Of a stretch of 64,000 nucleotides of DNA, positions 1 to 59,451 are shown piece by piece. The position numbers and the translations under genes are program-made. Origin of the DNA: Eutreptiella sp. 'Long Island Sound 2002' (Eukaryota > Euglenozoa > Euglenophyceae > Eutreptiales > Eutreptiaceae); assembly GCA_964036045.1 (NCBI GenBank), contig OZ038386.1:11928113-11992112 (forward strand). Direction: 5' to 3'. The notes below the pieces were generated by a model, which saw only the letters and a program-made list of their open reading frames with translations, did not search any database and had not been told where the DNA came from. The number at the start of each line of letters is the position of its first letter. The stretch's first letter is position 1.

Positions 1-3000
1 GCGCCGTCTACGCCCCCTTGCGGAGGCCCCCACGTGGGTGAGCCCGCAAGGTTTCGCCGGTGCCCTGGACCACATCTTCCTCCGCGCCCCTTCGGAAGCA
101 GCCCACACCACGGAGGTGCGCTCCGATTCCAGTTTCCCATCTGACCACCTACCCGTAACCGCCACCCTCCATGACCTCCCGCCAGCGCCCCAATTGGTAT
201 GCCCTTCGAAAAAGGGCCGCTTCCCCATCCCGCGGGAGCCCCTCGCCAGCCAGCTCCGCACCCTCAACGACACCTTTCGGGCCGAACTCACTACGCCGCC
301 CCCAGGCGCGCCCCAAGCGCAGCCATGCTATACCGAGGTGACCTCAGCGCTATACGCCGCGGCTACGGCTGCCTACGGGCCTCCCGTCCCCAGCCAGCCG
401 GTACCGTCGACGGTACGTGTCCACGTCACCAACCTTCAACGCTACACCCTCGCCTACCCGGATTGGGCGTCCCAATCGTCACACCTCGTGGAGGTCGCCC
501 GCCTCAAAGAACGCATCCGAGCGGCCTGGGACGTTCTCCTTCTGGAGAAAGATGTAGGGCTGGCGCCCCTACCCGCTGCCCCTGGCCAGCCCACCAAAGT
601 GGACTACCGCCGCACGTTAGGGGCGCGCTACGTACCCCCAGCGGATCCGGTCTACGTGGTGGGCGTCCCGGTACCTCTTCATCAACAAGCCGCCGTTGCG
701 TTGGACCAGCTGCGCCAAAGGCACCTTGCCCCTCTTGAGGCGCTTTAGCTCGCGCGCGTCCGGACCATCACGGGATGGGAGGGCAGGCTGCTCGGCCCAC
801 CACCCAGCGCCACCACCGCAAACCTGCGAGCCATCATCCGCCGGGCGGCGGCCACTGTGCCGTACCACGATTTACTGGTGTACCAGCTGTTCGGACAATT
901 GGAGGATGCCCAATTTGCGACGATCGTGAACCTGATCAACAGTATTCTCCGTGGGGTGCCCGTGCCCCAGGCACACTCTGCAGACTTCATCAACCTTCCG
1001 AAAAAGACGCCGCACGGCCCCATTGCGAACGGCAGGCCGCTGACCAACCTGGCCACGATATGAAAGCTCACGGCTGCCCTCATCAAAGACCACTACCAGC
1101 CCCGCCTGGTTCAGGGCGGCATCCTGCCGCCCTACCAGTTCGGGATGTCCCCGCACTGCTCCTCCGTGGAGCTACTCCGCGTCCTACACGATGTATGGTG
1201 GGACCGCTGGCGCAGGCGCCTCGAAGCGTGGGTCCTGTCGGACGATGTCCGCCACGCGTATGGCTCCATCAACCACACCACCGAGTACGCCGTCCTCACC
1301 GCCGCAGGGATCTCCCCTGCCGACGCCGCGACCCTTCAGCACCATGACCGCGCCCTTGAGGTGCACATGGGGGGGGCTGACGGTCGCTCTCCGTCCTCCA
1401 CTCGGTTGGGGGCCGGCACGGGGCAAGGGTGCCCCGTGTCCGGCATGAAGTACTGCATATATGGCGAAGTTCGAGGGCACGAGGCCTGCCGTTCCGTCCC
1501 CCCCACCGACACCCCCGCGGGCCCGCTGAACCGGGTTCTCCTGATGGATGATACCCAGTGGCTGCCCGGCGACCGTTGCCACTTGCCCGCCCTCACCAGC
1601 GGCATTGAGAGGGCAGGCCGCCTCACCAACCTCCACTCTGACCCGACCAAAACGGTCTTGATCGGCACCGACATGCGCGATGGTCAGGTCTATTTCCTCA
1701 ACGACACGGTATAGCTCAACGGTCACCCCGTGCGATGTGCCACGAGCCAGGACTACGTCCGCGTTCTTGGCCGCCATGCCCTTCCCCACCTCTTCCATCC
1801 CGTCGACTCCAGGCGCCTGTTCTCGGGCACCCGCGCTGCGTGCCGGGCGCTCCGCGCCCCGCGACTCCCCGCCCACTACCCCCTCGCCATGTATACCGCC
1901 AAGTGTCATGGGACGGTCAACTGGTTTACCAGTGTCCGCCCCCCCTCCTACGGGGCCCTGCGCGTGCTGGACGCCATGACTGCCTCGGCCATGCGCGCCA
2001 CCGCTGGGTGGACCCTCTCCGCCTCTGCTCACTTCCTCCGCGAGGTCCCCGAAGGGGGAGTCGTTATCCCCCCGGCACCGGTCGTTGGGTTTACTAACTT
2101 CTTCTGCGTCTACATCCGGCACCTGAACCACCCCAACTCCCTGGTCTGCCGGTCCACGCGCCACGGGCTCCTGACTGCCCTCTGGCGGTTCCATCCTTCC
2201 CAGCCCTGCCTCACCCCAGAGCTCGGGCTCCGGTGCACCGCACACCCCACGGACCACGATCTATTTGTCGCCCTGTGCCACCGGTGCGACATCGCCATCC
2301 ACTTACCCCCTGACAGCCATCTGCCACACCACACCCCCCATGTGCTGGCCCTGTCGTCACCCGGACTCGAGGTCCAGGACACCCACGCGTGGATGCTTGC
2401 AGGCCATCGCAGTACAGAGGACGCGCGACGGAAGGGGTGGCCCCGGGCCTCGCCCCGCCCCACTCCGCCGGTCGGCACCGTCCCCCCGGTTAGACGCTGC
2501 CAAGCGGTGACTGCGACCGTCCCCACGTTCTCCTGGCTCCCTGAAAACTATGGGATCCTCCACGACGCGTCGTGGTGCCCAAAGACCCGACGCTGCGGCG
2601 GGGCAGTGGCGGTGTTCTGCCCCGTCACCCTCCGGTACCAGGTGTACCCCGTCCCCATCCCCTTGAGGCTGGACAGCGCCTACACGGCGGAGCTGTACAC
2701 GGCATGGGTGGCCCTCACCGCCAAGGGGCCCTCAGCCGACCCTGCCATCGGCTTCCGGTCCGGTGCGTGGCACTTTGCGGACTGCAAGGGGTACATCACG
2801 GCGCAGGAAGGGCGCCGCGAGCCGGAAGACTCGCTACAAGGAGATCTCATAAGATCGTGTCGCGACATGGCCCACGGTCACGCCCCTCCCCATCACCTCT
2901 ATTCCCATATCGCCGGCACCTGGCTCGATACCCTGCTGGACCAGGTGGACGAAGCGGCAGGGCAAGCTGCGGACACTTGCCCAGACGCCGTGGGATGGCT

Positions 3001-4600
3001 CGGCCCCCTACAGCAACCCCGCGTCTGCTTCTCCCACGCGGGCCTCCAGGTCCACGACGCCGTGCCCCACGCGCGCCGCGCCTTGCTCGCCTCCCACCAC
3101 GCCTATTCTGCGTCCCCCCCGCCTCAGCGCCGCCCCGACCTCAACGAGTACGCCAACATCGTCAGCCACGGCCTCATCACATGGGGGGACCACCTCACGG
3201 TCACCGGCATCCGCATCTCCCTGTTCCCCCCAAGGGATGCGTCCTGCCCCCTCTGCACCATGCCCGCCTCCGGGGACCACATCCTCTCATGCCCGCTAGA
3301 CCCGCTCATCCGCGCCCACTACCATCGGTGGCTTGCGGCCCGACTCTCTCAGAGGTGCCATGCCTGGCGCCACTGTACGCCCACTGCTTGGGGCACCCTC
3401 GTCCTTTGGGGGGACGAGCCGTTCATACTGGCTGTGGATGGCTCCCCGGCCCACCACACCATCTCAACCTACACTATTGGTCGTCTCGGAGCCATCTCCA
3501 CGCCACACAGGGATGCCCTGCTGCACAGAGGTCTGCGTCCTGCGCGTCTCCGTCGCCTACTCTGCGACGTCGTTCTCACTACCGTCCTCCTACATAAGCG
3601 GCACGCGGTGCCCGTTCTACCTCTTGCCGACCACCTCTCCCCCCTACCTCGGGCCCCCGTGAACCAGTCCCTCGCCAACGACCCACCGCCAGAGTGGTAT
3701 CACGTTGCCAACTGGGCCCCAACGCCCGGCTCGGGCAGGTGGCCGGCCTGGGACGTCCTCCTAGGACTCTGGCTATCAGGGGACCTCCTCCTGGCCCCTA
3801 AGGTGAAGTCCGCCATCTCCACCCGGAACAAGCGCAGTCCGTACCGCGTCCTGTATGTGTACATCGAGAAGAACCAGATGTCGCCGGCCGTGCGGCAGGA
3901 GATTGAGCTGAAAGCCCATGACGTGATCATCTTGGACAGTCTCGGACGGCACGGGCTTGCCCCCCATCTCCCGGATCGACGCCGCCTCTGGGCCATCCAT
4001 TACGGTGGCAATGGACGGAGCCTAGAGGCCGGCCTCTGTGGAGATGTGATCCCCTCGCGGTGTGCCGCACTACATTCCGCGTTCTCGGCCATCATCACTG
4101 CGGCTTCCCAAGGACCCCGCACGGTCTTCAAGGACATGCAGGTGTCCCTGTGACGGCCCGCACCGTGGCCTTGTCCCCGCCCGTGACCCGTCCTCGACCT
4201 CACGCGCCCGGACAGCTCCGGTGCAGCGCGCAGTCGTGCCGGACCGCGCTCCTTGTCTGGCGGCGTTCTAAGTCGGAGGTGATGCCCCGGGAGACCCACA
4301 TCTTCCGTGCCCGTTGATCTTGGAACGCTTACTCGGGTGGATCCAGGACAGTTCGGAGCGGTTGGTGGCCGGAACCGGAGAGCAGATCGAACCGTAGCGT
4401 TGTCGTACACCGACGTTGTGACCCAGACGGCCTGCTGGGAGGAGCGTTCTCAGGTGTGCGACGAGATTCGTCTTGCTCTAGCGGAGGTAAGACGGAGGAC
4501 TCCCTCGGCAGAGCCTGCGTGGGGCCCCCGAGGGACGACGCCAAGGCTCACCGTACGTGGGACCGCGGCAGGCGCTCCTCCTCCTCCTCCTCCTCCTCAG
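1..4600 (+). mobile_element. LINE family A, copy A1 (5' part outside window)
   Basis: This is the 3' half of a non-LTR retrotransposon that is complete at 33602-43055 and 45265-54741. It enters the window inside ORF2, just upstream of the end of the endonuclease domain. ORF2 is followed by a 3' UTR (4154 to about 4570) and a (CTC)n tail at about 4575-4598, after which the 8-bp satellite starts at once. It differs from A2 and A3 by many more substitutions than they differ from each other, and it carries three nonsense codons, so it is the oldest or most relaxed copy here. Confidence 0.93.
2..4153 (+). pseudogene. LINE A1 ORF2 fragment: end of endonuclease, RT, RNase H, zinc knuckle; three nonsense codons
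   Basis: The frame is continuous from base 2 to the TGA at 4151-4153 but is interrupted by TAG 746-748 (TCA in A2 and A3), TGA 1061-1063 (TGG) and TAG 1712-1714 (TAC). There is no frameshift, so all damage is point mutation. The fragment opens in the last part of the AP-type endonuclease (LDHIF, then SDHLPV). RT motif A (VLSDDVRHAY) is near 1232, motif B (GTGQGCP) near 1415 and motif C (LMDD) near 1541-1552. RNase H starts near 2550 (HDASW) and the C-terminal C-x2-C-x7-H-x3-C knuckle lies near 3245-3290. The terminal residues differ from A2 (ending QVSL rather than continuing to RP). The product would be non-functional. Confidence 0.92.
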
Positions 4601-7494
4601 CCACTCACCCACTCACCCACTCACCCACTCGGCCACTCACCCACTCACCCACTCACCCACTCACCCACTCACCCACTCACCCACTCACCCACTCACTCAC
4701 TCACCCACTCACCCACTCACCCACTCACCCACTCACCCACTCACCCACTCACCCACTCACCCACTCACCCACTCACCCACTCACCCACTCACCCACTCAC
4801 CCACTCACCCACTCACCCACTCACCCACTCACCCACTCACCCACTCACCCACTCACCCACTCACCCACTCGCCCACTCGCCCACTCACCCACTCACCCAT
4901 TCACCCACTCACCCACTCACCCACTCACCCATGCACCCATGCACCCACTCACCCACTCACCAACTCACCCACTCACCCACTCACCCACCCACCCAGCCAC
5001 CCACTCACCCACTCAACCACTCACCCACTCACCCACTCACCCACTCACCCACTCGCCCACTCACCCACTCACCCACACACCCACTCACCCACTCAGCCAC
5101 TCACCCACTCACCCACTCACCCACTCATCCACTCACCCACTCACCCACTCACCCACTCACCCACTCACCCACTCGCTCACTCACCCACGCACCCACTCAC
5201 CCACTCACCCACTCACCCACTCACCCACACACCCACCCACCCACTCACCCACTCACCCACTCACCCAGTCACCCACTCACCCACTCACCCACTCACCCAC
5301 TCACCCAGTCACCCACTCACCCACTCACCCACTCACCCACTCACCCACTCACCCACTCACCCACTCATCCACTCACCCACTCACCCACTCACCCACTCAC
5401 CCACTCACCCACTCACCCACTCACCCACTCACCCACTCACCCACTCACCCACTCAACCACTCACCCACTCACCCACTCACCCACTCACCCACTCACCCAC
5501 TCACCCACTCACCCGCTCACCCACTCACCTACTCACCCACTCAGCCACACACCCACTCACCCACTCACCCACTCACCCACTCACCCACTCACCCACTCAC
5601 CCACTCACCCACTCATCCACTCACCAACTCACCCACTCACACACTCACCCACTCACCCACTCACCCACTCACCCACTCACCCACTCACCCACTCACCCAC
5701 TCACCCACTCACCCACTCACCCACTCACCCACTCACCCACTCACCCACTCACCCACTCACCCACTCACCCACTCACCCACTCACCCACTCACCCACTCAC
5801 CCACTCACCCACTCACCCACTCACCCACTCACCCACTCACCCACTCACCCACTCACCCACTCACCCACTCACCCACTCACCCACTCACCCACTCACCCAC
5901 TCACCCACTCACCCACTCACCCACTCACCCACTCACCCACTCACCCACTCACCCACTCACCCACTCACCCACTCACCCACTCACCCACTCACCCACTCAC
6001 CCACTCACCCACTCACCCACTCGCCCACTCGCCCACTCACCCACTCACCCATTCACCCACTCACCCACTCACCCACTCACCCATGCACCCATGCACCCAC
6101 TCACCCACTCACCAACTCACCCACTCACCCACTCACCCACCCACCCACCCACCCACTCACCCACTCACCGACTCACCCACTCACCCACTCACCCACTCAC
6201 CCACTCACCCACTCACCGGCTAACCCACACACCCACTCACCCACTCAGCCACTCACCCACTCACCCACTCACCCACTCATCCACTCACCCACTCACCCAC
6301 TCACCCACTCACCCACTCACCCACTGGCTCACTCACACACTCACCCACTCACCCACTCACCCACTCACCCACTCACCCACACACCCACTCACCCACTCAC
6401 CCACTCACCCACTCACCCACTCACCCACACACCCACTCACCCCCTCACCCACTCACCCACTCACCCACTCACCCACTCACCCACTCACCCACTCACCCAC
6501 TCACCCACTCACCCACTCACCCACTCACCCACTCACCCACTCACCCACTCACCCACTCACCCACTCACCCACTCACCCACTCACCCACTCACCCACTCAC
6601 CCACTCACCCACTCACCCACTCACCCACTCACCCACTCACCCACTCACCCACTCACCCACTCACCCACTCACCCACTCACCCACTCACCCACTCACCCAC
6701 TCACCCACTCACCCACTCACCCACTCGCCCACTCGCCCACTCACCCACTCACCCATTCACCCACTCACCCACTCACCCACTCACCCATGCACCCATGCAC
6801 CCACTCACCCACTCACCAACTCACCCACTCACCCACTCACCCACCCACCCACCCACCCACTCACCCACTCACCGACTCACCCACTCACCCACTCACCCAC
6901 TCACCCACTCACCCACTCACCGGCTCACCCACACACCCACTCACCCACTCACCCACTCACCCACTCACCCACTCACCCACTCATCCACTCACCCACTCAC
7001 CCACTCACCCACTCACCCACTCACCCACTGGCTCACTCACACACTCACCCACTCACCCACTCACCCACTCACCCACTCACCCACACACCCACTCACCCAC
7101 TCACCCACTCACCCACTCACCCAGTCACCCACTCAGCCACTCACCCACTCACCCACTCACCCAGTCACCCACTCACCCACTCACCCACTCACCCACTCAC
7201 CCACTCACCCACTCACCCACTCATCCACTCACCCACTCACCCACTCACCCACTCACCCACTCACCCACTCACCCACTCACCCACTCACCCACTCACCCAC
7301 TCACCCACTCAACCACTCACCCACTCACCCACTCACCCACTCACCCACTCACCCACTCACCCACTCACCCGCTCACCCACTCACCCACTCACCCACTCAC
7401 CCACACACCCACTCACCCACTCGGCCACTCACCCACTCACCCACTCACCCACTCACCCACTCACCCGCTCAGCCACTCACCCACTCACCCACTC
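4601..7494 (+). repeat. 8-bp satellite array S1, (CACTCACC)n
   Basis: About 2.9 kb of head-to-tail 8-bp units with scattered single-base variants (CATCC, CAGCC, CAACC, CTGGCTCA, CGGCTCA). Variant clusters recur at multiples of 8: the doublet of ATGCACCC starts at 4931, 6083 and 6787 (1152 and 704 bp apart), so higher-order units of hundreds of bases have been duplicated. The - strand reads TGAGTGGG and can form G-quadruplexes (GGG every 8 bases). All three + frames lack stops; the Thr-His-Pro-Leu-rich translation is not regarded as a protein. Confidence 0.97.
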
Positions 7495-7745
7495 GGCGGA
7501 GGTTCCCCAGCGAGAGGAGGCCGCTGGGGTTTGCCATCGGAGACAGCTCACCTCCCTAAATAACGAAAATCCGCGAACCCCCCCCCCCCCAGAAAACAAG
7601 CAAGAACCTCCGGGGGCGAGAGTTGGGACCCTCCCCCATGCGCCTTGGGCCATGAATTAACATGCGCCCCCAGTTAAAACAGCCTCCCCTGACCTGTGGT
7701 CAGAGAAAGCTGAGCCAGCCCCGGGGGGGAGTGGCTCAGGGTGTT
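7495..7745 (+). other. C1 conserved 5' head
   Basis: This matches the C2 head at 17751-18000. It contains a perfect 8-bp hairpin, CCCCAGCG / CGCTGGGG, with a 9-base loop at about 7506-7530; C2 keeps this stem with one bulged C. A run of 13 C near 7579-7591 follows. The block about 7603-7660 (starting AGCAAGAACCTCCGGGGG) is nearly identical in C1 and C2. It may hold an internal promoter, but no clear Pol III box was identified. Confidence 0.6.
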
Positions 7746-7747
7746 GC

Positions 7748-8435
7748 CAGCCGCCCCCCTCCCCCCTTACAGCGCGAGGCCAACAGCCTGTGGTGAGGCC
7801 ACGCATCGCGCTTGCAGCCCAGGCACCAATATCCTCCTGGTGAGGGCCTCGGTGGGGGAGACGCCAAAAGCCTGTGGTGAGGCGCCCCCCCCCCCCCCAT
7901 GCACGCCCCTTGGCGCACCCCACGCGCAGCCCCACGCAGCGCTCCTGCGCAGCACCACAGCGCGCCTGTGCGCAGCCCCACGCAGCGCTCATGCGCAGCC
8001 CCAAACAGCGCTCATGCGCAGCCCCATGCTGCGCCCCTGCGTGTCTCCATGCCGCGCCCCTGCGCAGCCCCAAGCAGCGCTCATGCGCAGCCCCAAGCTG
8101 CGCTCACGCGCAGCCCCATGCTGCGCCCCTGTGTGTCCCCATGCTGCGCCCCTGCGCAGCCCCAAGCAGCGCTCATGCGCAGCCCCAAGCAGCGCTCATG
8201 CGCAGCCCCACGCAGCGCTCATGCACAGCCCCATGCTGTGCTCAAGCGGGGCCCCATGCTGCGCCCCTGCGCAGCCCCATGCCAGCCGCCCCCCTCCCCC
8301 CTTACAGCGCGAGGCCAACAGCCTGTGGTGAGGCCACGCATCGCGCTTACAGCCCAGGCACCAATATCCTCCTGGTGACGGCCTCGGCGGGGGAGACGCC
8401 AAAAGCCTGTGGTGAGGCCCCCCCCCCCCCCCCCA
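7748..8435 (+). repeat. 153-bp direct repeat pair inside C1
   Basis: The block 7748-7900 (from CCAGCCGCCCCCCTC to a run of C) recurs almost unchanged at 8281-8435. It carries the motif AGCCTGTGGTGAGGC twice per copy. The interval is filled with minisatellite units. C2 has a related module three times (18033, 18361, 18772), so the module is part of family C and multiplies with the minisatellite. Confidence 0.8.
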
Positions 8436-11400
8436 TGCACGCCCCTTGGCACACCGCAGGCGCAGCCCCACGCAGCGCTCCTGCACGGCACCACTGTGCG
8501 CCCGTGCGCAGCACCATTGTGCGCCCGTGCGCGGCCCCCTGCTGCGCCCATGCGCACCCCCACGCTGCGCCCCTGCGCAGCCCCGCGCAGCGCTCATGCG
8601 CAGCCCCATCCTGCGCTCCTGCTGACACCTCCCACGCTGCCCCCCTTGCCGTGCGTAGTCACACGCTACGCCCCAGCGCGGCCCCACACTGTGCCCCGGC
8701 GCAGCCCCACGCAGCGCTCTTGCGCAGCCCCGCGCTTCTCCACGGCTTATTCCCACGCTGTGCGCATGCGCAGCCCCATGCCGCGCCCATGCGCGGCCCC
8801 ACGCTGCGCCCCTTGCACAGCCACACGCTGCGCCCCTGCGCAGCCCCATGCGCAGCCCCATGCCGCCCCCATGCGCGGCCCCATGTTGCGCCCTTGCGCA
8901 GCCCCACGCTGTGCCCCTGCGCAGCCCCACGCTGCGGCCCTGCGCAGCCCCATGCGCAGCACCATGCTGCGCCCCTGCGCAGCTCCAAGCTGCTGCGCCC
9001 CTGAGCGGCCCCATGCTGCCGCGCCCCTGCGCAGCCCCACGCTGCGCCCCTGCGCAGCCCCATGCTGCCGCGCCCCTGCACAGCCCCGTGCTGATGTGCC
9101 CCCCCGCAGCCCCATGCTGCCGCGCCCCTGCGCCGCCTCGTACTGCTGCGCCCCTGCGCAGCCCCACGCGGCGCCCCTGCGCAGCCCCACGCTGCTGCGC
9201 CCCCCAGCAGCACCATGCTGCTGCGCCCCTGCGCAGCCCCGTGCCGCTGCACCCCTGCGCAGCCCCACGCTGCTGCGCCCCATGCGCAGCCCCATGCTGC
9301 TGCGCCCCTGCGCAGCCCCACGCTGCTGCGCCCCTGCGACACCCCACGCTGCTGCGCCCCAGCGCAGCCCCACGCTGCGCCCATGCTGCAGCCCCATGCG
9401 CGGTCAATACTGCTTTCCTGCCAGTGCCACGCTGCGCCCGTGCGCAGCCCCACGCTGCTGCGCCCCTCCGCAACCCCATGCTGCTGCGCCCCTGCGCAGC
9501 CCCATGCAGCTGCGCCCCAACACAGCCCCATGCAGCTGCCCCCCTACGCAGCCCCACGCTGCTGCGCCCCTGCGCAGCCCCACGCTGCGCCCATGCTGCA
9601 ACCCCATGCGCGGCCCCATGCTGCTTTCCTGCCAGCCCCACGCCGCGCCCCTGCGCGGCTCCACGCTGCTGCACCCAAACGCAGCCCCATGCAGCTGCGC
9701 CCCTGCGCAGCCCCACGCTACTGCGCCCCTGCGCAGCCCCACGCTGCTGCGCCCCTGCGCAGCCTCACGCTGCGCCCCTGCGCAGCCTCACGCTGCTGCG
9801 CCCCTGCGCAGCCCCACGCTGCTTCGCCCCTTGCGCAGCCCCACGCTGCGCCCCTGCATAGCCCCACGCTGCGCCCCTACACAGCCTCACACCGCCGCGC
9901 CCCTGCGCAGCCCCACGCTGCTGCGCCCCTGCGCAGCCCCACGCTGCTTCGCCCCTTGCGCAGCCCCACGCTGCGCCCCGGCATAGCCCCACGCTGCGCC
10001 CCTGCGCAGCCCCATGCTGCTGCGCCCCTGCGCAGCCGCATGCTGCTGCGCCCCTGAACAGCCCCACGCTGCTGCGCCCTTGCGCAGCCCCATGCTGCTG
10101 CGCCCCTGCGTGGGCCCGTGCTGCTGCGCCCGTGCGCAGCCCCACAATGCTGCGCCCGTGCGCAGCCCCACGCTGCTGCGCCCCTGCGCAGCCCCATGCT
10201 GCTGCGCCCCTGAACAGCCCCACGCTGCTGCGCCCCAGCGCAGCCCCACGCTGCGCCCATGCTGCAGCCCCATGCGCGGTCAATACTGCTTTCCTGCCAG
10301 TGCCACGCTGCGCCCGTGCGCAGCCCCACGCTGCTGCGCCCCTCCGCAACCCCATGCTGCTGCGCCCCTGCGCAGCCCCATGCAGCTGCGCCCCAACACA
10401 GCCCCATGCAGCTGCCCCCCTACGCAGCCCCACGCTGCTGCGCCCCTGCGCAGCCCCACGCTGCGCCCATGCTGCAACCCCATGCGCGGCCCCATGCTGC
10501 TTTCCTGCCAGCCCCACGCTGCGCCCCTGCGCGGCTCCACGCTGCTGCGCCCAAACGCAGCCCCATGCAGCTGCGCCCCTGCGCAGCCCCACGCTACTGC
10601 GCCCCTGCGCAGCCCCACGCTGCTGCGCCCCTGCGCAGCCTCACGCTGCGCCCCTGCGCAGCCTCACGCTGCTGCGCCCCTGCGCAGCCCCACGCTGCTT
10701 CGCCCCTTGCGCAGCCCCACGCTGCGCCCCTGCATAGCCCCACGCTGCGCCCCTACACAGCCTCACACCGCCGCGCCCCTGCGCAGCCCCACGCTGCTGC
10801 GCCCCTGCGCAGCCCCACGCTGCTTCGCCCCTTGCGCAGCCCCACGCTGCGCCCCTGCATAGCCCCACGCTGCGCCCCTGCGCAGCCCCATGCCGCTGCG
10901 CCCCTGCGCAGCCGCATGCTGCTGCGCCCCTGAACAGCCCCACGCTGCTGCGCCCTTGCGCAGCCCCATGCTGCTGCGCCCCTGCGTGGGCCCGTGCTGC
11001 TGCGCCCGTGCGCAGCCCCACAATGCTGCGCCCGTGCGCAGCCCCACGCTGCTGCGCCCCTGCGCAGCCCCATGCTGCTGCGCCCCTGAACAGCCCCACG
11101 CTGCTGCGCCCTTGCGCAGCCCCACGCTGCTACGCCCCTGCGCAGCCCCACGCTGCTACGCCCCTGCGCAGCCCCACGCTGCTGCGCCCCTGCGCAGCCC
11201 CACGCTGCTGCGCCCCTGCGCAGCCCCACACTGCTGCGCCGCTGCGCAGCCCCACGCTGCTGTGCCCCTGCGCACCCCCCGCGCAGCCCCGTGTTGCTCC
11301 GCCCCTGCGCAGCCCCATGCAGAGCCCCTGCTCCGAAGCTACACGCTGCTGCGCCCCTGTGCAGCCCCGTGTTGCTGCACCTTTGCGCAGCCCCTGGCCG

Positions 11401-13290: not shown

Positions 13291-13925
13291 GCCCTGTGCG
13301 CTGTTCCTCGCTGCGCCTTGTGCAGCCCCACGCAACGCTCCTGCGCGGCCCCAGACTGCGCCTTAGTGCAGCCGCATGCCGCACCCTCTCACGGCCCCCT
13401 TGCGGCGCCCCTTCGGCGGCTCCGCGTTCCGCCCGAGCGCAGCCCCACGCTGCACTCCTTGCGCAGCCGCTGCGCCCCAGCCGAGCTCCAGGCTACGCAG
13501 CCGCATGCCGCACCCCTGCGCGGCCCCACACTGTTCCCCTGCGCAGTCCTACGGAGCCCCCCTGCTCGGTCACCCAGCGCGTTCCAGCGCAGCCACACGC
13601 AGCGCCCCCGGTGCAGCCAATGCGCCCCAGCCCAGCTCCACATGCTGCGCCCCTGCTCAGTCACGCGCTGCGCCCCGGCCCCGGCGAAGCCCCATGCTGC
13701 GCCCCAGCAAAGCCCCACACTGCCACGCTGCGCAGCCGTTGCACCCCAGCACAATCCCAAGCAACACCCCTGTGTAGCGGCCCCGCACAGCACCCCTGCG
13801 CGGTGCCCCGCTGCGCCCATGCACATCCCCACGCTGCCCCCCCCCCCCCTCCCAGAAAAAAACCGCCGCAGCGCAGGTACACCCCCACCGCCCCACCCAC
13901 ACCGAACGCGGACCCCCCCCCCCCC
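13290..13925 (+). repeat. Degenerate end of the C1 minisatellite
   Basis: Here the units become irregular. CAGCCCCACGC and GCGCAGCC fragments still recur but spacing and sequence drift, and there are runs of 10 C (about 13840) and 13 C (about 13914). This is the expected decay at the edge of a tandem array. No gene is seen. Confidence 0.65.
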
Positions 13926-14108
13926 CTGAAACCGGCAAGTGTCAGCCCCCGGTGGCGCGGGGTGCTGCCACGGGCCGCCCGCTTCGACCCGACTTGGCGG
14001 GACCGAGTAAGCCGCCCTATGGCGGTTGGGAGCCCCTCGTTTTCTGGGTCCCCCTCCAGCTGTGCTGGTGCCTCGGGCGGGTCGACCTGAAACCTGAAAC
14101 CTGAAAAC
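13926..14108 (+). other. C1 conserved 3' end with stem-loops and (CCTGAAA)3 tail
   Basis: This aligns with C2 23286-23477. Visible stems are CCGCC-CTAT-GGCGG (about 14011-14024), CCAGC-TGT-GCTGG (about 14056-14068), and a longer-range pairing of TCGACCC (about 13984) with GGGTCGA (about 14080). The last 22 bases are three copies of CCTGAAA and then satellite. Structured 3' ends followed by short tandem tails are typical of LINE and SINE RNAs read by a reverse transcriptase; the RT that would read this one is not known. Confidence 0.65.
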
Positions 14109-17748: not shown

Positions 17749-17750
17749 CA

Positions 17751-45264: not shown

Positions 45265-45343
45265 CTGGTGACCTGGCACCAGTCTAAAAACCCTCAGGAT
45301 GGTAGCTGTAGGACGGATTGCCTACACGCACTGCCACGCTGGA
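45265..45343 (+). promoter_or_regulatory. Conserved A/B 5' leader with two stem-loops (A3)
   Basis: Stem-loop 1 here is the perfect CTGGTG-N6-CACCAG, and stem-loop 2 is TGTAGG-N8-CCTACA as in A2. The leader begins directly after CACTCAC of the satellite, in a different register from A2 and B1. Confidence 0.6.
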
Positions 45344-46032
45344 CACCAATCGTGAATCGTCGTGTTAGTCGTGCCACCACGTGACTCAGCTCTGCCATCG
45401 TGGCCCCCTCTCCGCTCAACTCCACCCGTATGGTGCACTCTCTCTCTCCCTCTTCATCCCGTGTCTCCAAGGGCTGAGTGCCGCACCTCAAGTGCGTCCC
45501 TCCCCCTTGCAAGCCGTTTCCTGCTCACAGTGGGCACGTCGTTATACGTTCGGCTCTGGCAAGACGTCCACCTCGCCGTGGCAATCTTCCAGGCCGCTAC
45601 GCGGGGAGCCGCGACGGGGACTGCATTCGACGTATCCGCCGCTCAAGCGTGACGCCTTGTGCAGGGGTATCATCAGTCGTCCGATTCGTCGTCCCAACGT
45701 GGGGCCCCTCGCTCCCGTGCGCCACTAGGGTTGCAGCACCACGCGCCAGCGCGGTGCTCCCCTCGCACCCCCGCCCTATGTGTCCTGGGACCCCCGCTCA
45801 CCGACCCGGTCCGCCAGGCGGCCCCATGTTACTCCGCGCCATCGCGCCATGCTCTTTATTTTGTCACACTATGGCCACGCTCGTGGTACCCCTTGTTTCT
45901 CTCCTGCGCGCCCCATCCGACTGGGGCTGCCTATGATGTCAGTGCACCTCCGTTTGCCGACACCTCGATCTGCTCCCCCCCCCCAACATATTGCGGCCAC
46001 AGGCCACCCGCTCTTTTCTCGCCACAGCTACC

Positions 46033-49026: not shown

Positions 49027-49034
49027 CCCGGGAC

Positions 49035-52000
49035 ATGGCGGGGCGCAACGAGGACATCCCTGCCGCCGTGTCCCAGCTCCGCCACTCCCACCTCGACGGC
49101 GTCCCCCATGTCCGGGGCCTGCACCTGGGCGCATACACTCCCAGCTCCCCCCCCAGAGAGTGGGGCCTGGTACCGGTACCGGCCTCGGGCACTGCCCAGT
49201 TCATCACGCCCCCCTATGCCCTCGAAATGTGCCTACACCTGCCGGTGGGTGTGCACTACTACCGGGCGTGCAGCGGGGCGGACCCCTGGCCCCGTAACGT
49301 TCTGTCGTTAGTGGGCGCCGTGCACTGTGTGCAGGTGACGGGCTCCCATCAGTTGCAGCTCTGCCGCAAGGGCCTGCCACCCACCTCCTTCATCTTGCCC
49401 GAGCATCACCACGTGGTCCTCCCACAATCCCTGCACAGCCGCGTCTCCATCACAGCCACAGGCCTCACCCGGGCCAGTGTCTTGGCGATGGCGGCCACGT
49501 ACCACCACCGGCACCTCCGCAAGTGGGTGCGAGGCCTACCTTGCGCCCTCCCCGCAGCCGTGGACCGCAAGCTAACCCGGCACTCCACCGCCGCCGGCTC
49601 CTGCCCTGGTCCCCCCCCCACCGGCCACGTGTCGCCCCGCCCAGACGTGATGACCCTCAACGTGCAGATGTCCCTGCGACCCAAGCTCCGCGCCCTGGAC
49701 GTCCTGGTGCGCGAGTGCCAGTACCCGCTGACCCTGCATGTTCAAGAAGCGGGGCCCCTGATCATCCAACGGGTGCACCCCCTGTACCACACCATCCAAG
49801 CACCTGCAAGAATAGCTGGGGGATGTGCCACCCTCCTCTACAGGACCCCGGACCTGGTCGTGACCGGCCACAGCGCCCACCCGTCGGGACGAGCCCTCGT
49901 CACGCACTTCACCATGGCTGGCGTGACCCACTGCCACGCCAACGTGTATTTCCCCGCCGACGGGAACCTCGACACCCTCCAAGAAATCCTGGATTGGGTG
50001 TACCCGTACCTCCTCCTCACCCCGGCTAGGGTGGTTGTCCTGACAGGGGACCTGAACGCCAACTGCCGCTGGGTCTCGCACCTCCCTGTCCCCCCTGCCT
50101 CCCTCTGTGACCTCGTCCTCCCACGCTCACGCGCCTTGGGATGCGCCGTCTACGCCCCCTTGCGGAGGCCCCCACGTGGGTGAGCCCGCAAGGTTTCGCC
50201 GGTGCCCTGGACCACATCTTCCTCCGCACCCCTTCGGAAGCAGCCCACACCACGGAGGTGCGCACCGACTCCAGTTTCCCATCTGACCACCTACCCGTGA
50301 CTGCCACCCTCCATGACCTCCCGCCAGCGCCCCAATTGGTATGCCCTTCGAAAAAGGGCCGCTTCCCCATCCCGCGGGAGCCCCTCGCCAGCCAGCTCCG
50401 CACCCTCAACGACACCTTTCGGGCCGAACTCGCTACGCCGCCCCCGGGCGCGCCCGAAGCGCAGCCACGCTATACCGAGGTGACCTCAGCGCTATACACC
50501 GCGGCTACGGCTGCCTACGGGCCCCCCGTCCCCAGCCAGCCGGTACCGTCGACGGTACGTGTCCACGTCACCAACCTTCAACGCTACACGCTCGCCTACC
50601 CGGATTGGGCGTCCCAATCGTCACACCTCGTGGAGGTCGCCCGCCTCAAAGAACGCATCCGAGCGGCCTGGGACGTTCTCCTTCTGGAGAAGGATGTAGG
50701 GCTGGCGCCCCTACCCGCTGCCCCTGGCCAACCCACCAAAGTGGACTACCGCCGCACGTTGGGGGCGCGCTACGTACCCCCAGCGGATCCGGTCTACGTG
50801 GTAGGCGTCCCAGTGCCTCTTCATCAACAAGCCGCCGTTGCGTTGGACCAGCTGCGCCAAAGGCACCTTGCCCCTCTTGAGGCGCTCTCACTCGCGCGCG
50901 TCCGGACCATCACGGGATGGGAGGAAAGGCCGCTCGGCCCACCACCCAACGCCGCCACTGCAAACCTGCGGGCCATCATCCGCCGGGCGGTGGCCACTGT
51001 GCCGTACCACGACTTACTGGAGTACCGGCTGTTCGGACAATTGGAGGATGCCCAGTTTGCGGCGATCGTGAACCTGATCAACAGTATTCTCCGTGGGCTG
51101 CCCGTGCCCCAGGCACACTCTGCAGACTTCATCAACCTTCCGAAAAAGACGCCGCACGGCCCCATTGCAAACGGCAGGCCGCTGACCAATCTGGCCACGA
51201 TATGGAAACTCACGGCTGCCCTCATCAAGGACCACTACCAGCCCCGCCTGGTTCAGAACGGCATCCTGCCGCCCTACCAGTTCGGGATGTCCCCGCACTG
51301 CTCCTCCGTGGAGCTACTCCGCGTCCTACACGATGTATGGTGGGACCGCTGGCGCAGACGCCTCGAAGCGTGGGTCCTGTCGGACGATGTCCGCCACGCG
51401 TATGGCTCCATCAACCACACCACCGAGTACGCCGTCCTCACCGCCGCAGGGATCTCCCCAGCCGACGCCGCGACCCTTCAGCACCATGACCGCGCCCTTG
51501 AGGTGCACATGGGGGGAGCTGACGGACGCTCTCCGTCCTCCACCCGGCTGGGGGCCGGCACGGGGCAAGGATGCCCCGTGTCCGGCATGAAGTACTGCAT
51601 ATATGGCGAAGTTCGGGGGCACGAAGCCTGCCGTTCCGTCCCCCCCACCGACACCCCCGCGGGCCCGCTGAACCGGGTTCTCCTGATGGATGACACCCAG
51701 TGGCTGCCCGGCGACCGTTGCCATTTGCCTGCCCTCGCCAGCGGCATTGAGAGAGCGGGCCGCCTCACCAACCTCCACTCAGACCCAACAAAAACGGTCT
51801 TGATCGGCACCGACATGCGCGATGGTCAGGTCTATTTCCTCAACGACACGGTATACCTCAATGGTCACCCCGTGCGATGTGCCACGAGCCAGGACTACGT
51901 CCACGTCCTTGGCCGCCATGCCCTTCCCCACCTCTTCCATCCCGTCGACTCCCGGCGCCTGTTCTCGGGCGCCCGCGCTGCGTGCCGGGCGCTCCGCGCC

Positions 52001-54328
52001 CCACGACTCCCCGCCCACTACCCCCTCGCCATGTATACTGCCAAGTGTCATGGGACGGTCAACTGGTTTACCAGTGTCCGCCCCCCCTCCTACGGGGCCC
52101 TGCGCGTGCTGGACGCCATGACCGCCTCGGCCATGCGCGCCACCGCTGGGTGGACCCTCTCCGCCTCTGCTCACTTCCTCCGTGAGGTCCCCGAAGGGGG
52201 AGTCGGTATACCCCCGGCACCGGTCGTTGGGTTTACTAACTTCTTCGGCGTCTACATCCGACACCTGAACCACCCCAACTCCCTGGTCTGCCGGTCCACG
52301 CGCCACGGGCTCCTCACTGCCCTCTGGCGGTTCCATCCTTCCCAGCCCTGCCTCACCCCGGAGCTCGGACTCCGGTGCACCGCACACCCCACGGACCACG
52401 ATCTATTTGTTGCCCTGTGCCACCGGTGCGACATCGCCATCCACTTACCCCCTGACAGCCATCTGCCACACCACACCCCCCATGTGCTGGCCCTGTCGTC
52501 ACCCGGACTCGAGGTCCAGGACACCCACGCGTGGATGCTTGCGGGCCATCGCAGTACAGAGGACGCGCGACGCAAGGGGTGGCCCCGGGCCTCGCCCCGC
52601 CCCACTCCGCCGGTCGGCACCGTCCCCCCGGTTAGACGCTGCCAGGCGGTGACTGCGACCGTCCCCACGTTCTCCTGGCTCCCTGAGAACTATGGGATCC
52701 TCCACGACGCGTCGTGGTGCCCGAAGACCCGGCGCTGCGGCGGGGCAGTGGCGGTGTTCTGCCCCGTCACCCTCCGGTACCAGGTGTACCCCGTCCCCAT
52801 CCCCTTGAGGCTGGACAACGCCTACACGGCGGAGCTGTACACGGCATGGGTGGCCCTCACCGCCAAGGGGCCCTCAGCCGACCCTGCCATCGGCTTCCGA
52901 TCCGGTGCGTGGCACTTCGCGGACTGCAAAGGGTACATCACGGCGCAGGAAGGGCGCCGCGAGCCGGAAGACTCGCTGCAGGGAGATCTCATAAGATCGT
53001 GTCGCGACATGGCCCACGGTCATGCCCCTCCCCATCACCTCTATTCCCATATCGCCGGCACCTGGCTCGATACCCTGCTGGACCGGGTGGACGAAGCGGC
53101 AGGGCAAGCTGCGGACAATTGCCCGGACGCCGTGGGATGGCTCGGCCCCCTACAGAAACCCCGCGTCTGCTTCTCCCACGCGGGCCTCCAGGTACACGAC
53201 GCCGTGCCCCACGCGCGCCGCGCCTTGCTCGCCTCCCACCACGCCTTCTCTGCGTCCCCCCCGCCACAACGCCTCCCCGACCTCAACGAGTACGCCAACA
53301 TCGTCAGTCACGGTCTCGTCACATGGGGGGACCACCTCACGGTCACCGGCATCCGCCTCTCCCTGTTCCCCCCAAGAGATACGTCCTGCCCCCTCTGCAC
53401 CATGCCCGCCTCCGGGGACCATATCCTCTCGTGCCCGCTAGACCCGCTCATCCGCGCCCACTACCATCGGTGGCTTGCGGCCCGACTCTCTCAGAGGTGC
53501 CATGCCTGGCGCCACTGTACGCCCACTGCTTGGGGCACCCTCGTCCTTTGGGGGGACGAGCCGTTCATACTGGCTGTGGATGGCTCCCCGGCCCACCACA
53601 CCATCGCAACCTACACTGTTGGTCGTCTCGGAGCCATCTCCACGCCACACAGGGATGCCCTGCTGCACAGAGGTCTGCGTCCTGCGCGTCTCCGTCGCCT
53701 ACTCTGCGATGTCGTTCTTACTACCGTTCTCCTACATAAGCGGCACGCGGTACCCGTTCTACCTCTTGCCGACCACCTCTCTCCCCTACCGCGGGCCCCC
53801 GTTAACCATTCCCTCGCCAACGACCCACCGCCAGAGTGGTATCACGTAGCCAACTGGGCCCCAACGCCCGGCTCGGGCAGGTGGCCGGCCTGGGACGTCC
53901 TCCTAGGACTCTGGCTATCAGGGGACCTCCTCCTGGCCCCTAAGGTGAAGTCCGTCATCTCCACCCGGGGCAAGCACAGTCCGTACCGCGTCCTGTATGT
54001 GTACAACGGGTCGAACCAGATTCCGCCGACCATGTGGCAGGAGATTGAGCAGAATCCCCATGACGTGATCATCTTGGACAGTCTCGGACGGCACGGGCTT
54101 GCCCCTCATCTCCCAGGTCGACGCCGCCTCTGGGCCATCCATTACGGTGGCAATGGACGGAGCCTGGAAGCCGGCCTCTGTGGAGATGTGATCCCCTCGT
54201 GGTGTGCCGCACTACATTCTGCGTTCTCGGCCATCCTCACTGCGGCTTCCCAAGGACCCCGCACGGTCTTTAAGGACATGCAGGTGGCCATGGGTCGGCC
54301 CGCCCCGTGGCCCTGTCCCCGCCCGTGA
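49035..54328 (+). pseudogene. LINE A3 ORF2: APE / RT / RNase H polyprotein with one-base deletion
   Basis: It starts as in A2 and reads through the N-terminal region and most of the endonuclease. One C is then missing in a run (CCC at 50120-50122; A2 has CCCC), so the first frame ends at 50183 and the remainder continues in another frame from about 50124 to TGA 54326-54328. The break falls between GDLNAN and the LDHIF/SDH motifs, so the endonuclease is split while RT, RNase H and the C-x2-C-x7-H-x3-C knuckle stay intact in the second frame. A homopolymer sequencing error is a fair alternative explanation. Differences from A2 are otherwise few and mostly silent or conservative. Confidence 0.9.
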
Positions 54329-54741
54329 CCCGTCCTCGACCTCACGCGCCCGGACCGCTCCGGTGCTGCGCGCAGTCGTGCCGGACCGCGCTCCTTGTCT
54401 GGCGGCGTTCTAAGTCGGAGGTGATGCCCCGGGAGACCCACATCTTCCGTGCACGTTGATCTTGGAACGCTTACTCGGGTGGATCCAGGACAGTTCGGAG
54501 CGGTTGGTGGCCGGGACCGGAGAGCAGATCGAGCCGTAGCGTTGTCGTACACTGACGTTGTGACCCAGACGGCCTGCTGGGAGGAGCGTTCTCAGGTGTG
54601 CGACGAGATTCGTCTTGCTCTAGCGGAGGTAAGACGGAGGACTCCCTCGGCAGAGCCTGCGTTTGGCCCCCGAGGGACGACGCCAAGGCTCACCGTACGT
54701 GGCACCGCGGCAGGCGCTCCTCCTCCTCCTCCTCCTCCTCC
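54329..54741 (+). other. LINE A3 3' UTR and (CTC)n tail
   Basis: Near-identical to 42646-43055. The tail has more CTC units than A2, and the following satellite begins CACTCACCC without transition. Length variation of the tail between copies is usual for LINE tails made by slippage. Confidence 0.75.
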
Positions 54742-57007
54742 TCCACTCACCCACTCACCCACTCACCCACTCACCCACTCACCCACTCACCCACTCACCC
54801 ACTCACCCACTCACCCACTCACCCACTCACCCACTCACACACTCACCCACTCACCCACTCACCCACTCACCCACTCACCCACTCACCCACTCACCCACTC
54901 ACCCACTCGCCCCCTCACACAATCACCCACTCACCCACTCACCCACTCACCCACTCACCCACTCACCCGCTCACCCACTCACCCACTCACCCTCTCAACC
55001 ACTCACCCACTCACCCACTCACCCACTCACCCACTCACCCACTCACCCACTCACCCACTCACCCACTCACCCACTCACCCACTCACCCACTCACCCACTC
55101 ACCCACTCACCCACTCACCCACTCACCCACTCACCCACTCACCCACTCACCCACTCACCCGGTCATCCACTCACCCACTCACCCACTCACCCACTCATCC
55201 ACTCACCCACTCACCCACTCACCCACTCACCCACTCACCCACTCACCCACTCACCCACTCACCCACTCACCCACTCACCCACTCACCCCCTCGCCCACTC
55301 ACCCACTCACCCACGCACCCACTCACCCGCTCACCCACTCACCCACTCACCCACTCACCCACTCACGCACTCACCCACTCACCCTCTCAACCACTCACCC
55401 ACTCACCCACTCACCCACTCACCCACTCACCCACTCACCCACTCACCCACTCACCCACTCACCCACTCACCCACTCACCCACTCACCCACTCACCCACTC
55501 ACCCACTCACCCACTCACCCACTCACCCACTCACCCACTCACCCACTCACCCACTCACCCACTCACCCACTCACCCACTCACCCACTCACCCACTCACCC
55601 ACTCACCCACTCACCCACTCACCCACTCACCCACTCACCAACTCACCCACTCATCCACTCACCCACTCACCCACTCACCCACTCACCCACTCACCCACTC
55701 ACACACTCACCCACTCACCCACTCACCCACTCACCCACTCACCCACTCACCCACTCACCCACTCACCCACTCGCCCACTCAACGGCTCACGCACTCACCG
55801 ACTCACGCACTCACCCACTCACCCACTCACCCACTCACCCACTCACCCACTCACCCACTCACCCACTCACCCACTCACCCACTCACCCACTCACCCACTC
55901 ACCCACTCACCCACTCACCCACCCACCCACTCACCCACTCACGCACTCACCCACTCCCCCACTCACCCACTTACCCACTCACCCACTCACCCACTCACCC
56001 ACTCACCCACTCACCCACTCACCCACTCACCCACTCACCCACTCACCCACTCACCCACCCACCCACTCACCCACTCACGCACTCACCCACTCCCCCACTC
56101 ACCCACTTACCCACTCACCCACTCACCCACTCACCCACTCACCCACTCACCCACTCCACCACTCCACCACTCCACCACTCCACCACTCCACCACTCCACC
56201 CACTCACCCACTCACCCACTCACCCACTCACCCACTCACCCACTCGCCCACTCACCCACTCACCCACTCACCCACTCACCCACTCAGCCACTCACCCACT
56301 CAGCAACTCACCCACACACCCACTCACCCACTCACCCACTCACCCACTCACCCACTCACCCACTCACCCACTCGCCCACTCAACGGCTCACGCACTCACC
56401 CACTCACGCACTCACCCACTCACCCACTCACCCACTCACCCACGCACCCACTCACCCACTCACCCACTCACCCACTCACCCACTCACCCACTCACCCACT
56501 CACCCACTCACCCACTCACCCACCCACCCACTCACCCACTCACGCACTCACCCACTCCCCCACTCACCCACTTACCCACTCACCCACTCACCCACTCACC
56601 CACTCACCCACTCACCCACTCCACCACTCCACCACTCCACCACTCCACCACTCCACCACTCCACCCACTCACCCACTCACCCACTCACCCACCCACCCAC
56701 TCACCCACTCGCCCACTCACCCACTCACCCACTCACCCACTCACCCACTCAGCCACTCACCCACTCAGCAACTCACCCACTCACCCACTCACCCACTCAC
56801 CCACTCGCCCACACACCCACTCACCAACTCACCCACTCACCCACTCACCCACTCACCCACTCACCCACTCACCCACTCACCCACTCACCCACTCACCCAC
56901 TCACCCACTCACCCACTCGCCCACTCACCCACTCACCCACTCACCCACTCACCCACTCGCACCACTCCACCACTCCACCACTCCACCACTCCACCACTCC
57001 ACCACTC
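54742..57007 (+). repeat. 8-bp satellite array S7 with embedded 9-bp blocks
   Basis: 2.27 kb of CACTCACC with GCACTCAC and CTCCCCCAC variants. It contains three short blocks of the 9-bp unit CACTCCACC at about 56152-56200, 56618-56664 and 56962-57006. A marker (CAACGGCTCACGCAC) recurs at 55780 and 56381, 601 bp apart. Confidence 0.96.
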
Positions 57008-59048
57008 CTCGTCAGGCCGGGCCCACCCCGCCCGCCACCCGTCCAGGACTCCTCCCTGGGCCAGAGGTGCAGCCTGTGAGGGGCAGATGCACCACTGCCA
57101 GACACAGTGCACCTGCTCGATATCTGGTGGCCTGGCACCAGGATAAAAACCCCCAGGATGGTAGCTGTGGGACGGATTGCCCACAAGCACAGCCAGGCAA
57201 CGGCCACGTGTTTACTCACTCACTCACTCACTCACTCACTCACTCACTCACTCACTCACTCGCTCACTCACCCGCGTCAGCCCAGGGCCCACCCCTGCCA
57301 CCCTCCGAGGGCCCCCCAGCCGCCCAGGCTCACCCACGCTCCCCCCTCACGCGCCGGCTCCCTGGCAGGGTACCACCGTGGTGCCGTCGTCGAACGCGTG
57401 CGCCGCCGTGACACGATCTTCGGGGCAGAGCGCCATCTAGCACTGCCCAGCCGTGACGCCAGTCCAGTGGCGAAGCGCCATCGTGGTGCCGCCAGCGTGC
57501 ACGTGCGCCATCGTGGCGCGGCTGACGCACAGGTATGCCATTGCTGTGCCTCCTCTAGGGCCATGCGACACCAGCACAGTCGCAGGGCACCAGCGTGGTG
57601 CCGCCAACGCCCGGGTACGCCGTAGCGGCGCGACCTCTGGGGCAGAGCGCCGTCGCGGCGCCGACTGAACGCCCGTGCGTTGTCGTGGCGCCGGCTCAGT
57701 GACAGAGCACAATCGTTGTGCCGCCAACACGCACGTGCGCCGTCGTGGCGCGGTTTCCGGTGCAGAGCGCCACCGTGGCGCCGCCCAGACCCGTGGAGTT
57801 CAGTGGCAGAGCGCCATCGTGGTGCCGTCAACGTACACGTGCGCCACCGTGACGCAATCCTTAGGGCAGATCGCCACCGCGGCGCTGCCCAGACAGCCCT
57901 ACGCCGACATGGCGCCAGGTCAGTGACGTGGCACCACCGTGGTGCAATCAACGTACACGTGCGTCGTCGTGGCGCAACCTTCAGGGCAGAGCGCCACCGT
58001 GGCGCTGCCCGGACAGCCAGTTCAGTGGCCGAGCGCCATCGTGGTGCCGCCAACGTACACGTGCGCCACCGTGACGCAGTCCTCAGGGCAGATCGCCACC
58101 GCGGCGCTGCCCAGACAGCCCTACGCCGACGTGGCGCCAGTTCAGTGACGTGGCACCACCGTGGTGCAATCAACGTACACGCGCGCCGTCGTGGCGCAAC
58201 CTTCAGGGCAGAGCGCCACCGTGGCGCTGCCCAAGCGGTCTTCGTGCGCCAGCCTAGCCATGGTGTGTCCTCCAGGCCAATGGTCGAGGCACCATGGCGG
58301 GGTCTGCACCTGGCGCTCCGCCACCCTCCGTGACACCCCGTGCAGAGGTGACGAGTCATCGGCGGTACTCACCGCCTCACCTGCCATCGGCGAACGTCGC
58401 CGTCTCGCTTGGGCACCATCGCGGTGCCACTTTCTCCATCACGTGCCGTCTCGGTGCACGTATCGTAGAGCTCGTCGTTAGGGCTCGGCCGTTGCGGCCG
58501 GGCGTCGTCGGTGACCTCCACAGCGGTGCACCACCGTGGTGCTGTGGCCGTGACGCACGTCCCGCCCTCACAGAACCCGGGGGTACCCAGGCCACCGGCG
58601 GTGCGCGTGATCGTGTGGCGTGACCGTACTCGCGACGCCGGCGGTACTCAGCCCGCCGGCAGTGCGCATAGTCGTGCTGGGCCGCGTTCTATTTAGCCCG
58701 GCGACGTTTTCAAGTCGGGGGTGATGCCCCGGGAGACCCACACCTTCCGTGCCCGTTGATCTTGGAACGCTGACGCGGGTGGATCCAGGACAGGTCGGAG
58801 CGGTTGGTGGCCGGGACCGGAGAGCGGATCGGACCGTAGCGTTGTCATACACCGGCATTGTGACCCAGACGGCCTGCTGGGAGGAGCGCTCTCAAGTGTG
58901 CGACGAGATTCGTCTTGCTCTAGCGGAGGTAAGACGGAGGACTCCCTCGGCAGAGCCTGCGTGGGGCCCCCGGGGGACGACGCCAAGGCTCATGGTACGT
59001 GGGACCGCGGCAGGCGCTCCTCCTCCTCCTCCTCCTCCTCCTGCTCCT
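57008..59048 (+). mobile_element. Family B element, copy B3
   Basis: 2.04 kb. It has the same start as B2 (GTCAGGCCGGGCCC), then the A-like head (about 57124), a longer (CTCA)n tract (57215-57270), the inverted-repeat core, and the A-derived 3' end. It is longer than B1 and B2 because of extra tandem copies in the core. Its 3' end is closer to A (TGATCTTGGAACGC) than those of B1 and B2 are. It is the only element followed by the 9-bp array instead of the 8-bp satellite. Confidence 0.83.
57798..58240 (+). repeat. 222-bp tandem duplication in B3 core
   Basis: GTTCAGTGGC starts a copy at 57798 and another at 58020, and the two copies match over nearly the whole unit. Each contains hairpin arms such as GCACCAC-C-GTGGTGC and GCGCCAC-C-GTGGCGC. 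B1 and B2 lack this duplication. Confidence 0.82.
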
Positions 59049-59451
59049 CCACCACTTCACCACTCCACCACTCCACCACTCCACCACTCCACCACTCCAC
59101 CACTCCACCACTCCACCAGTCCACCACACCACCACTCCACCACTCCACCACTCCACCACTCCACCACTCCACCACTCCACCACACCACCACTCCACCACT
59201 CCACCACTCCACCACTCCACCACACCACCACTCCACCACTCCACCACCCCACCACCCCACCACCCCACCACTTCACCACTCCACTGCTCCACCACTCCAC
59301 CACTCCACCACTCCACCGCTCCACCGCTCCACCACTCCACCACTCCACCACACCACCACTCCACCACTCCACCACTCCAGCTCTCAAGCACTCCACCACT
59401 CCACCACTCCACCACTCCACAACTGCACCACTCCACCACTCCACCACTTTG
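59049..59451 (+). repeat. 9-bp satellite array S8, (CACTCCACC)n
   Basis: About 45 units of a 9-bp relative of the main satellite, one C longer, with variants CACCACACC, CACCACCCC and CACTTCACC. It is the last satellite before non-satellite DNA on the right. Frames in both directions are open because the unit has no stop; they are not genes. Confidence 0.96.

Follow-up and report, generated by a model that had tools for sequence, protein, structure and literature searches.

A stretch of 64,000 nucleotides of the 2.28-Gb assembly of Eutreptiella sp. 'Long Island Sound 2002' (C9:11928113-11992112, analysed as a whole and referred to as the window) carries eight retroelements of three families, A, B and C, embedded in satellite arrays of the unit CACTCACC. 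Copies of A and B were found to have entered tandem arrays that already existed, many kinds of array being used, with short target duplications and, where the array is CACTCACC, in one direction relative to the satellite strand. We consider it likely that A is a long interspersed nuclear element (LINE) which inserts mostly into tandem arrays of many kinds, nicks their G-rich strand and probably mobilises B, and that C is moved by another LINE. The initial annotation, made from the window only, had confined all three families to one 8-bp satellite, and this confinement does not hold in the assembly.

Elements and arrays of the window

Arrays were delineated using Tandem Repeats Finder, which reported seven long CACTCACC arrays and one CTCCACCA array, and masked self-comparison identified the three element families between them. 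The features, all on the + strand, are as follows.

1..4596, +, A1, 3' part of a LINE, cut by the window start; 96.5-96.8% identity to A2 and A3; open reading frame (ORF) 2 interrupted; (CTC)n tail
4601..7494, +, S1, CACTCACC array
7495..14107, +, C1, without recognised coding region; GC-rich 23/26-bp repeats; (CCTGAAA)n tail
14108..17747, +, S2, CACTCACC array
17748..23475, +, C2, second C copy; (ACCAGAT)n tail
23476..28670, +, S3, CACTCACC array
25428..25433, +, CCCACT in S3, empty site for A2 (uninterrupted paralogue of the A2 insertion site)
28671..30372, +, B1, A-type start (CTGGTGACCTGGCACCA), about 370 bp of A-type 3' end, (CTC)n tail
30383..31566, +, S4, CACTCACC array
31567..33222, +, B2, 116 extra bases ahead of an A-like start
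33230..33602, +, S5, CACTCACC array
33603..43055, +, A2, full-length LINE; ORF2 open at 37351-42645, 1764 amino acids (aa)
43056..45265, +, S6, CACTCACC array
45267..54742, +, A3, full-length LINE; ORF2 in two overlapping frames, 49035-50183 and 50141-54328
54743..57007, +, S7, CACTCACC array; right half with three CTCCACCA stretches, the last of which (56960-57007) touches B3
57008..59046, +, B3, B2-type start; between CTCCACCA stretches
59047..59448, +, S8, CTCCACCA array

The in-window junctions of A, C, B1 and B2 are all with CACTCACC arrays, and to this extent the earlier statement that every junction lies on the satellite or on a 9-bp variant of it was upheld. B3, however, joins CTCCACCA on both sides (about 49 bases before it, 56960-57007, and the array 59047-59448 after it), and this variant is an 8-bp unit. 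Satellite makes up 80% of the non-element DNA in the window, so that all eight elements would lie in satellite by chance with P 0.17, and in-window confinement is therefore weak evidence when taken alone.

Flanks of A and B copies in the assembly

The 3' end of B3 was used as the query for further copies, yielding 1584 first-look candidates, 40 of which were scored and 30 read. A flank was counted as an array when a repeat with a period above 3, a score of at least 100 and a length of at least 60 started within 60 bases of the tail start. An array follows the (CTC)n tail in 25 of these 30 A/B-type copies (22 of 27 when B3 and duplicates are left out), with units of 5, 8 (two kinds), 10, 12, 21, 24, 25, 30, 31, 42, 46 and 47 bp. 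A single 47-bp repeat accounts for ten of the 25 and CACTCACC for two, the latter corresponding to 2/30 of all fetched copies. The tail of copy L014 leads into a short CTCA run and then the next element, and that of L025 into a degenerate repeat. For the background, 40 stretches were drawn at random from 19 contigs whose length was known and the first 20, of 10 kb each, were searched with the same score and length limits but with any period counted; 20.9% of this sequence is array. Set against a background of 0.21, the observed 25 of 30 has a P of ~5e-13 when the copies are treated as independent, which a few are not. One random stretch (L050) holds the 47-bp repeat and (GGTGT)n next to each other, and the 47-bp unit therefore occurs also away from the fetched copies.

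Both ends were available for 14 B copies (12 without duplicates), and the same kind of array lies on both sides of 11 of the 14. Target duplications of 6-11 bp are present in 13 of the 14, the other one being ambiguous within its array; most of the duplications start with CC, to which the tail may have contributed in part.

A large protein collection was searched for ORFs that continue from the A/B 3' end into the adjoining DNA (candidates of 110-350 aa), giving 87 ORFs, 83 with a usable flank and four without. Automatic sorting of the flanks placed 28 in short-period repeats and 36 in the 47-bp repeat, with 19 unclassed, and only 5 of the 87 ORFs run straight into CACTCACC. Flanks free of stop codons are over-represented in this sample and long CACTCACC arrays, owing to the limit of 110-350 aa, are missed, so that it shows the breadth of the arrays used and not their proportions. 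Numerous copies of A, B or C outside the satellite had been named beforehand as evidence against confinement, and such copies were found.

Direction of insertion

All eight elements of the window, A1-A3, B1-B3 and C1-C2, point the same way, for which chance alone gives 1/128, as the initial annotation had noted, and the assembly gave much stronger evidence of a preferred direction than this figure. Places where an A/B tail is followed by two CACTCACC units within 30 bases were counted against those followed by reverse-complement units, giving 105 matches (some of which overlap at one place) against 0. Among the 100 matches listed there are 81 distinct places, four of them in the window, which form 31 clusters, and none of the 19 multi-copy clusters is mixed. 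For C, six tails (two in the window) run into CACTCACC and none into its reverse complement. The direction of A and B thus very clearly follows the CACTCACC strand, that of C does so with modest support, and the occurrence of both orientations within CACTCACC arrays, named beforehand as counter-evidence, was not seen.

In other arrays, direction was read from the ORF sample. A short-repeat set of 34 ORFs was picked by eye, 13 of which had a fit of at least 0.67 and were open on both strands, and in all 13 the sense strand has more C than G. The 47-bp repeat, which contains CACT equally on both strands, is entered in both directions, by 25 and 11 ORFs under automatic sorting, which misassigned one or more of the 11 and wrongly placed P0062 with this repeat. 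Start positions within the repeat were compared in a chosen set of 26 and 11 ORFs, which includes P0085, P0074 and P0076 as additions and leaves out P0062 and P0094 (with CACCA first), and 25 and 10 of which were used. In the commoner direction 14 of the 25 starts fall in one 4-base window, a clustering reached by 0 of 20000 random sets. Seven ORFs run into another element of the same direction and two into an opposite-facing one, both of the latter in the 47-bp repeat.

Pre-existing satellite and independence of the copies

S3 matches the left flank of A2 as far as 25433 and the right flank from 25428 onwards, with 296 identical positions over 300 bases on each side and 21 and 7 variant bases in common. 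Therefore, S3 contains an uninterrupted paralogue of the A2 site, of which CCCACT (6 bp) is duplicated around the element: A2 entered satellite that was already present, with a 6-bp duplication. Empty sites were also sought for five further insertions (C1, C2, B1, B2 and A3) and were not found.

Flank variants of same-family copies were compared at about equal distance from the element ends, the A2 empty site serving as the control. No variants are in common in 7 of the 10 comparisons (A2/A3 left and right, A1/A2, A1/A3, B1/B2 left, and C1/C2 left and right), and the remaining three, all of B, gave 7 of 49 (B1/B2 right), 4 of 67 and 5 of 78 (the two B3 comparisons). Because same-family copies hardly share flank variants, they are taken to be separate insertions, and the possibility, raised in the initial annotation, that segmental duplication produced all eight copies is not supported. 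Two small indels with a spacing of 180 bp recur together in S2, S3 and S4 (17495/17675, 24218/24398 and 30698/30878), and satellite segments have therefore been copied around the elements.

Element A

A2 and A3 are 98.7% identical across approximately 9.47 kb. In the ORF2 of A2, RVT_1 was matched with an E of 1.2e-6 (28.8 bits, below the Pfam cut-off of 29.6) and Exo_endo_phos_2 with an E of 1.6e-4 (21.9 bits, below the cut-off of 27.4). Within 13 members of the A family, RVT_1 was matched in 10 and Exo_endo_phos_2 in 7 at E<=0.1, and Exo_endo_phos in 2, with a best E of 3.7e-7. The two domain matches in ORF2 are weak but consistent. A has the features by which LINEs are recognised, namely a predicted reverse transcriptase (RT), a predicted endonuclease of the apurinic/apyrimidinic endonuclease (APE) type, and a short, variable duplication combined with a simple 3' tail. 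3' of the RT, the ORF2 of A2 was read by eye as containing an RNase H-like stretch as well as a CCHC-like motif, neither of which Pfam reported. ORF2 protein clusters P0002 and P0007 (90% identity) have 385 and 125 members, and A is therefore a large family.

Two protein searches, the second with the RT part, recovered only A's own family. A tblastn search of ORF2 against phages gave no match, an exact satellite 40-mer had 0 occurrences in viral contigs, Rfam and PDB (the latter by sequence and by profile) gave 0 matches, and NCBIfam gave no match above its cut-off.

Element B

B1-B3 are non-autonomous elements of 1.7-2.0 kb and have no recognised coding region. They have in common with A a 3' end of about 370 bp at about 90% identity, which would be the part required for recognition, as well as the start, which in B2 and B3 follows 116 further bases, and their middle is without a match to A in the self-comparison. 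The middle of B3 (57582-58233) contains repeats of its own, of 60 to 222 bp. On the basis of these common ends, A and B probably share machinery, and B is probably moved in trans by the enzyme of A. As changes on both sides were found in only 2 of 123 predicted pairs, no claim is made for an RNA structure at the A/B 3' end.

Element C

C1 and C2 have both ends in common, 7-bp tail repeats and an interior of 23/26-bp repeats, and by its fixed ends and repeat-type 3' tail C can be classed as a putative retroposed element. At the ends tested it is unrelated to A or B, the A and C 3' ends scoring like shuffled sequence when compared. C was considered as a non-autonomous partner of A and rejected, there being no common 3' end. 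Exact C ends number 139 in the assembly, and CACTCACC lies within 30 bases after 6 of the 139, a count that misses tails that are longer than 30 bases or carry changes. C thus lies mostly outside the CACTCACC satellite and only sometimes inside it. The earlier proposal that three families share one target is retained in part, in that A and B have common ends; C, with its unrelated ends and occasional use of CACTCACC, falls outside it.

Proposed mechanism

Family A would insert by target-primed reverse transcription, mostly in tandem arrays of many kinds. Its endonuclease is proposed to make the choice of strand by nicking the G-rich strand of the array, and the (CUC)n-ended RNA would then be copied from the freed 3' end, where the C-rich tail can pair with a ...GG end at the nick. 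With priming from the nicked G-rich strand, the sense strand of the element would follow the C-rich strand. A cut in the second strand 6-11 bp away would give the target duplication, and B would be carried by the A enzyme through the common 3' end. Arrays that are asymmetric between strands, such as CACTCACC and CACCA, would accept elements in one direction, and those with the motif on both strands, such as the 47-bp unit, in both. C would probably be moved by another LINE, absent from the window and able to use the CACTCACC satellite.

A motif of two to four bases is common everywhere and would not by itself explain the preference for arrays, to which motif density, an unusual DNA structure or survival of the copies may contribute. 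A more tentative extension, which we regard as possible though short of an even chance, is that one LINE endonuclease reads arrays as a class, through a short motif on the G-rich strand in a repeated or structured context, so that any one-sided C-rich array would be a home, and that the C lineage obeys the same strand rule in CACTCACC.

Several points weigh against insertion by A into arrays as set out above. The 30 fetched copies are the best B3 matches and not a random sample; they include B3 itself and the duplicate pairs L022/L023 and L026/L027. Three copies (L008, L021 and L028) and perhaps a fourth, L025, have no clear array around them, and arrays are therefore not absolutely required. 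The background rests on 20 stretches, two of which are practically all array. As ten of the 25 array copies share the 47-bp repeat with its two directions, the strand rule can be called firm for CACTCACC alone and has support for simple repeats, and no significant clustering is seen among the 10 opposite-direction starts used from the 47-bp repeat (P 0.19). That A and B are similar is no proof of trans-mobilisation, and the predicted structure model of the A endonuclease, with a predicted local distance difference test (pLDDT) score of 38, is unusable.

Alternative explanations

The alternative that survives best is that insertion is broad and near random, selection removing copies from genes and unique DNA while arrays retain them. 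L021 and L028, which have duplications in non-array DNA, are in keeping with it, and arrays make up about a fifth of the genome sample. However, the excess of array flanks over this background (25/30 against 0.21) is large, the strict strand rule in CACTCACC is not expected from selection alone, and neither are the clustered starts in one direction of the 47-bp repeat readily attributed to it; we regard this explanation as unlikely, a mild nick preference combined with selection being possible.

Strict specificity for the CACTCACC/TGAGTGGG satellite, common to the three families, would agree with the window, where all copies but B3 (in the CTCCACCA variant) adjoin CACTCACC, and with the 81 distinct tail-CACTCACC places among the 100 matches listed. 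It has become very improbable, as CACTCACC is the flank of only 2/30 A/B copies, 5/87 ORFs and 6/139 C ends, and it is refuted by the copies whose two ends and duplication lie within arrays of other kinds. We give equally little credence to the spread of one insertion by unequal exchange or segmental duplication within the satellite: segments of the satellite are indeed duplicated (the indels of S2, S3 and S4), and the flanks within the pairs L022/L023 and L026/L027 are identical, but flank variants common to same-family pairs of the window are few or absent, as compared with 21 and 7 in the empty-site control, the A2 empty site is intact, and other copies lie in different arrays with different duplications. 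Growth of the arrays from the element's own 3' tail after insertion, suggested by the C-rich nature of both the tail and several arrays, is the least credible of all, as the same kind of array lies at the 5' end in 11 of 14 copies, S3 holds the uninterrupted A2 site, and units of 47, 42 and 25 bp are unlike the tail, which refutes it for these copies.

Sequence beyond the last array

A 65-bp repeat (6.6 copies, 59637-60069) lies just past S8. Outside the satellite, a fragment of rve (Integrase core domain) was detected at 61405-61884 on the - strand, with an E of 4.7e-7, just below the cut-off, and is perhaps from a long terminal repeat (LTR) element of the Ty3 type. An RNase H-like open frame at 63238-63999 on the - strand (E 1.7e-4, below the cut-off), followed by a frame at 62294-63316 without a Pfam match, looks like another retroelement in the opposite direction.

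Relation to known repeat-targeting elements

A single gene or a single repeat is usually the target of a site-specific LINE. Waldo, Mino, Kibi and Koshi are LINEs that target microsatellites, and each microsatellite-targeting family is, to our knowledge, confined to one simple motif. Internally deleted R2 derivatives (SIDEs) and LINE-dependent short interspersed nuclear elements (SINEs) also exist, and B resembles them in keeping both A ends with no recognised coding region, and differs in that its middle has no match to A.

SART and TRAS of the silkworm telomeric repeats insert in opposite orientation to each other (PMC10088271). They resemble A and B as LINEs within short tandem repeats whose direction is tied to the repeat strand. 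TRAS and SART, which belong to the R1 clade, use one telomeric repeat, whereas A and B use many arrays scattered over contigs, and the likeness is one of behaviour. The comparison with TRAS/SART or R1/R2 drawn in the initial annotation holds for selectivity of target and for direction tied to the satellite strand, A2 having an empty site in the satellite, and fails for use of a single satellite. A was considered as an element in the style of the R1 clade with a single telomeric repeat as its target, and set aside given its many kinds of array; likewise, neither A/B (2/30) nor C (6/139) qualifies as specific to a single satellite. Zepp in Chlorella telomeres and other telomere-associated LINEs (PMC10088271) resemble A in having LINE copies in tandem repeats and differ in being telomeric, the A/B arrays lying on many contigs.

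Togen families are found in (TG)n, and microsatellites are the target of some HERO families (PMC4640811). HERO belongs to the restriction-like-endonuclease clades and the placement of Togen near HERO and NeSL is unsettled (PMC4640811), whereas A has a predicted APE-type domain and array units of 5-47 bp. Insertion into non-coding simple repeats is what Togen and these HERO families, as well as Waldo, Mino, Kibi and Koshi, have in common with A and B. Within the parts of the sources at hand, the repeat-targeted families TRAS, SART, Zepp, Togen and HERO are each described with one target motif (PMC10088271, PMC4640811), and R2 families that have lost target specificity have been described (PMC5035012). 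Among the open-licence papers listed, which give a partial view of the literature, none had a title suggestive of a described system for the CACTCACC satellite, and absence from print is not claimed.

A LINE family that is found in arrays of many kinds and obeys a strict strand rule in CACTCACC, the array examined across the assembly, represents a new, broad variant of the repeat-targeting LINEs. The difference between its behaviour in the window and in the assembly calls for caution in inferring 'one satellite, one element' from a single window. If the proposed insertion into many arrays is true, the family would offer a natural means of testing how endonucleases select repetitive DNA when no fixed sequence guides them, with the various arrays, each with its two flanks and duplications, as ready-made substrates, and it would account for satellites interleaved with uniformly oriented retroelements.

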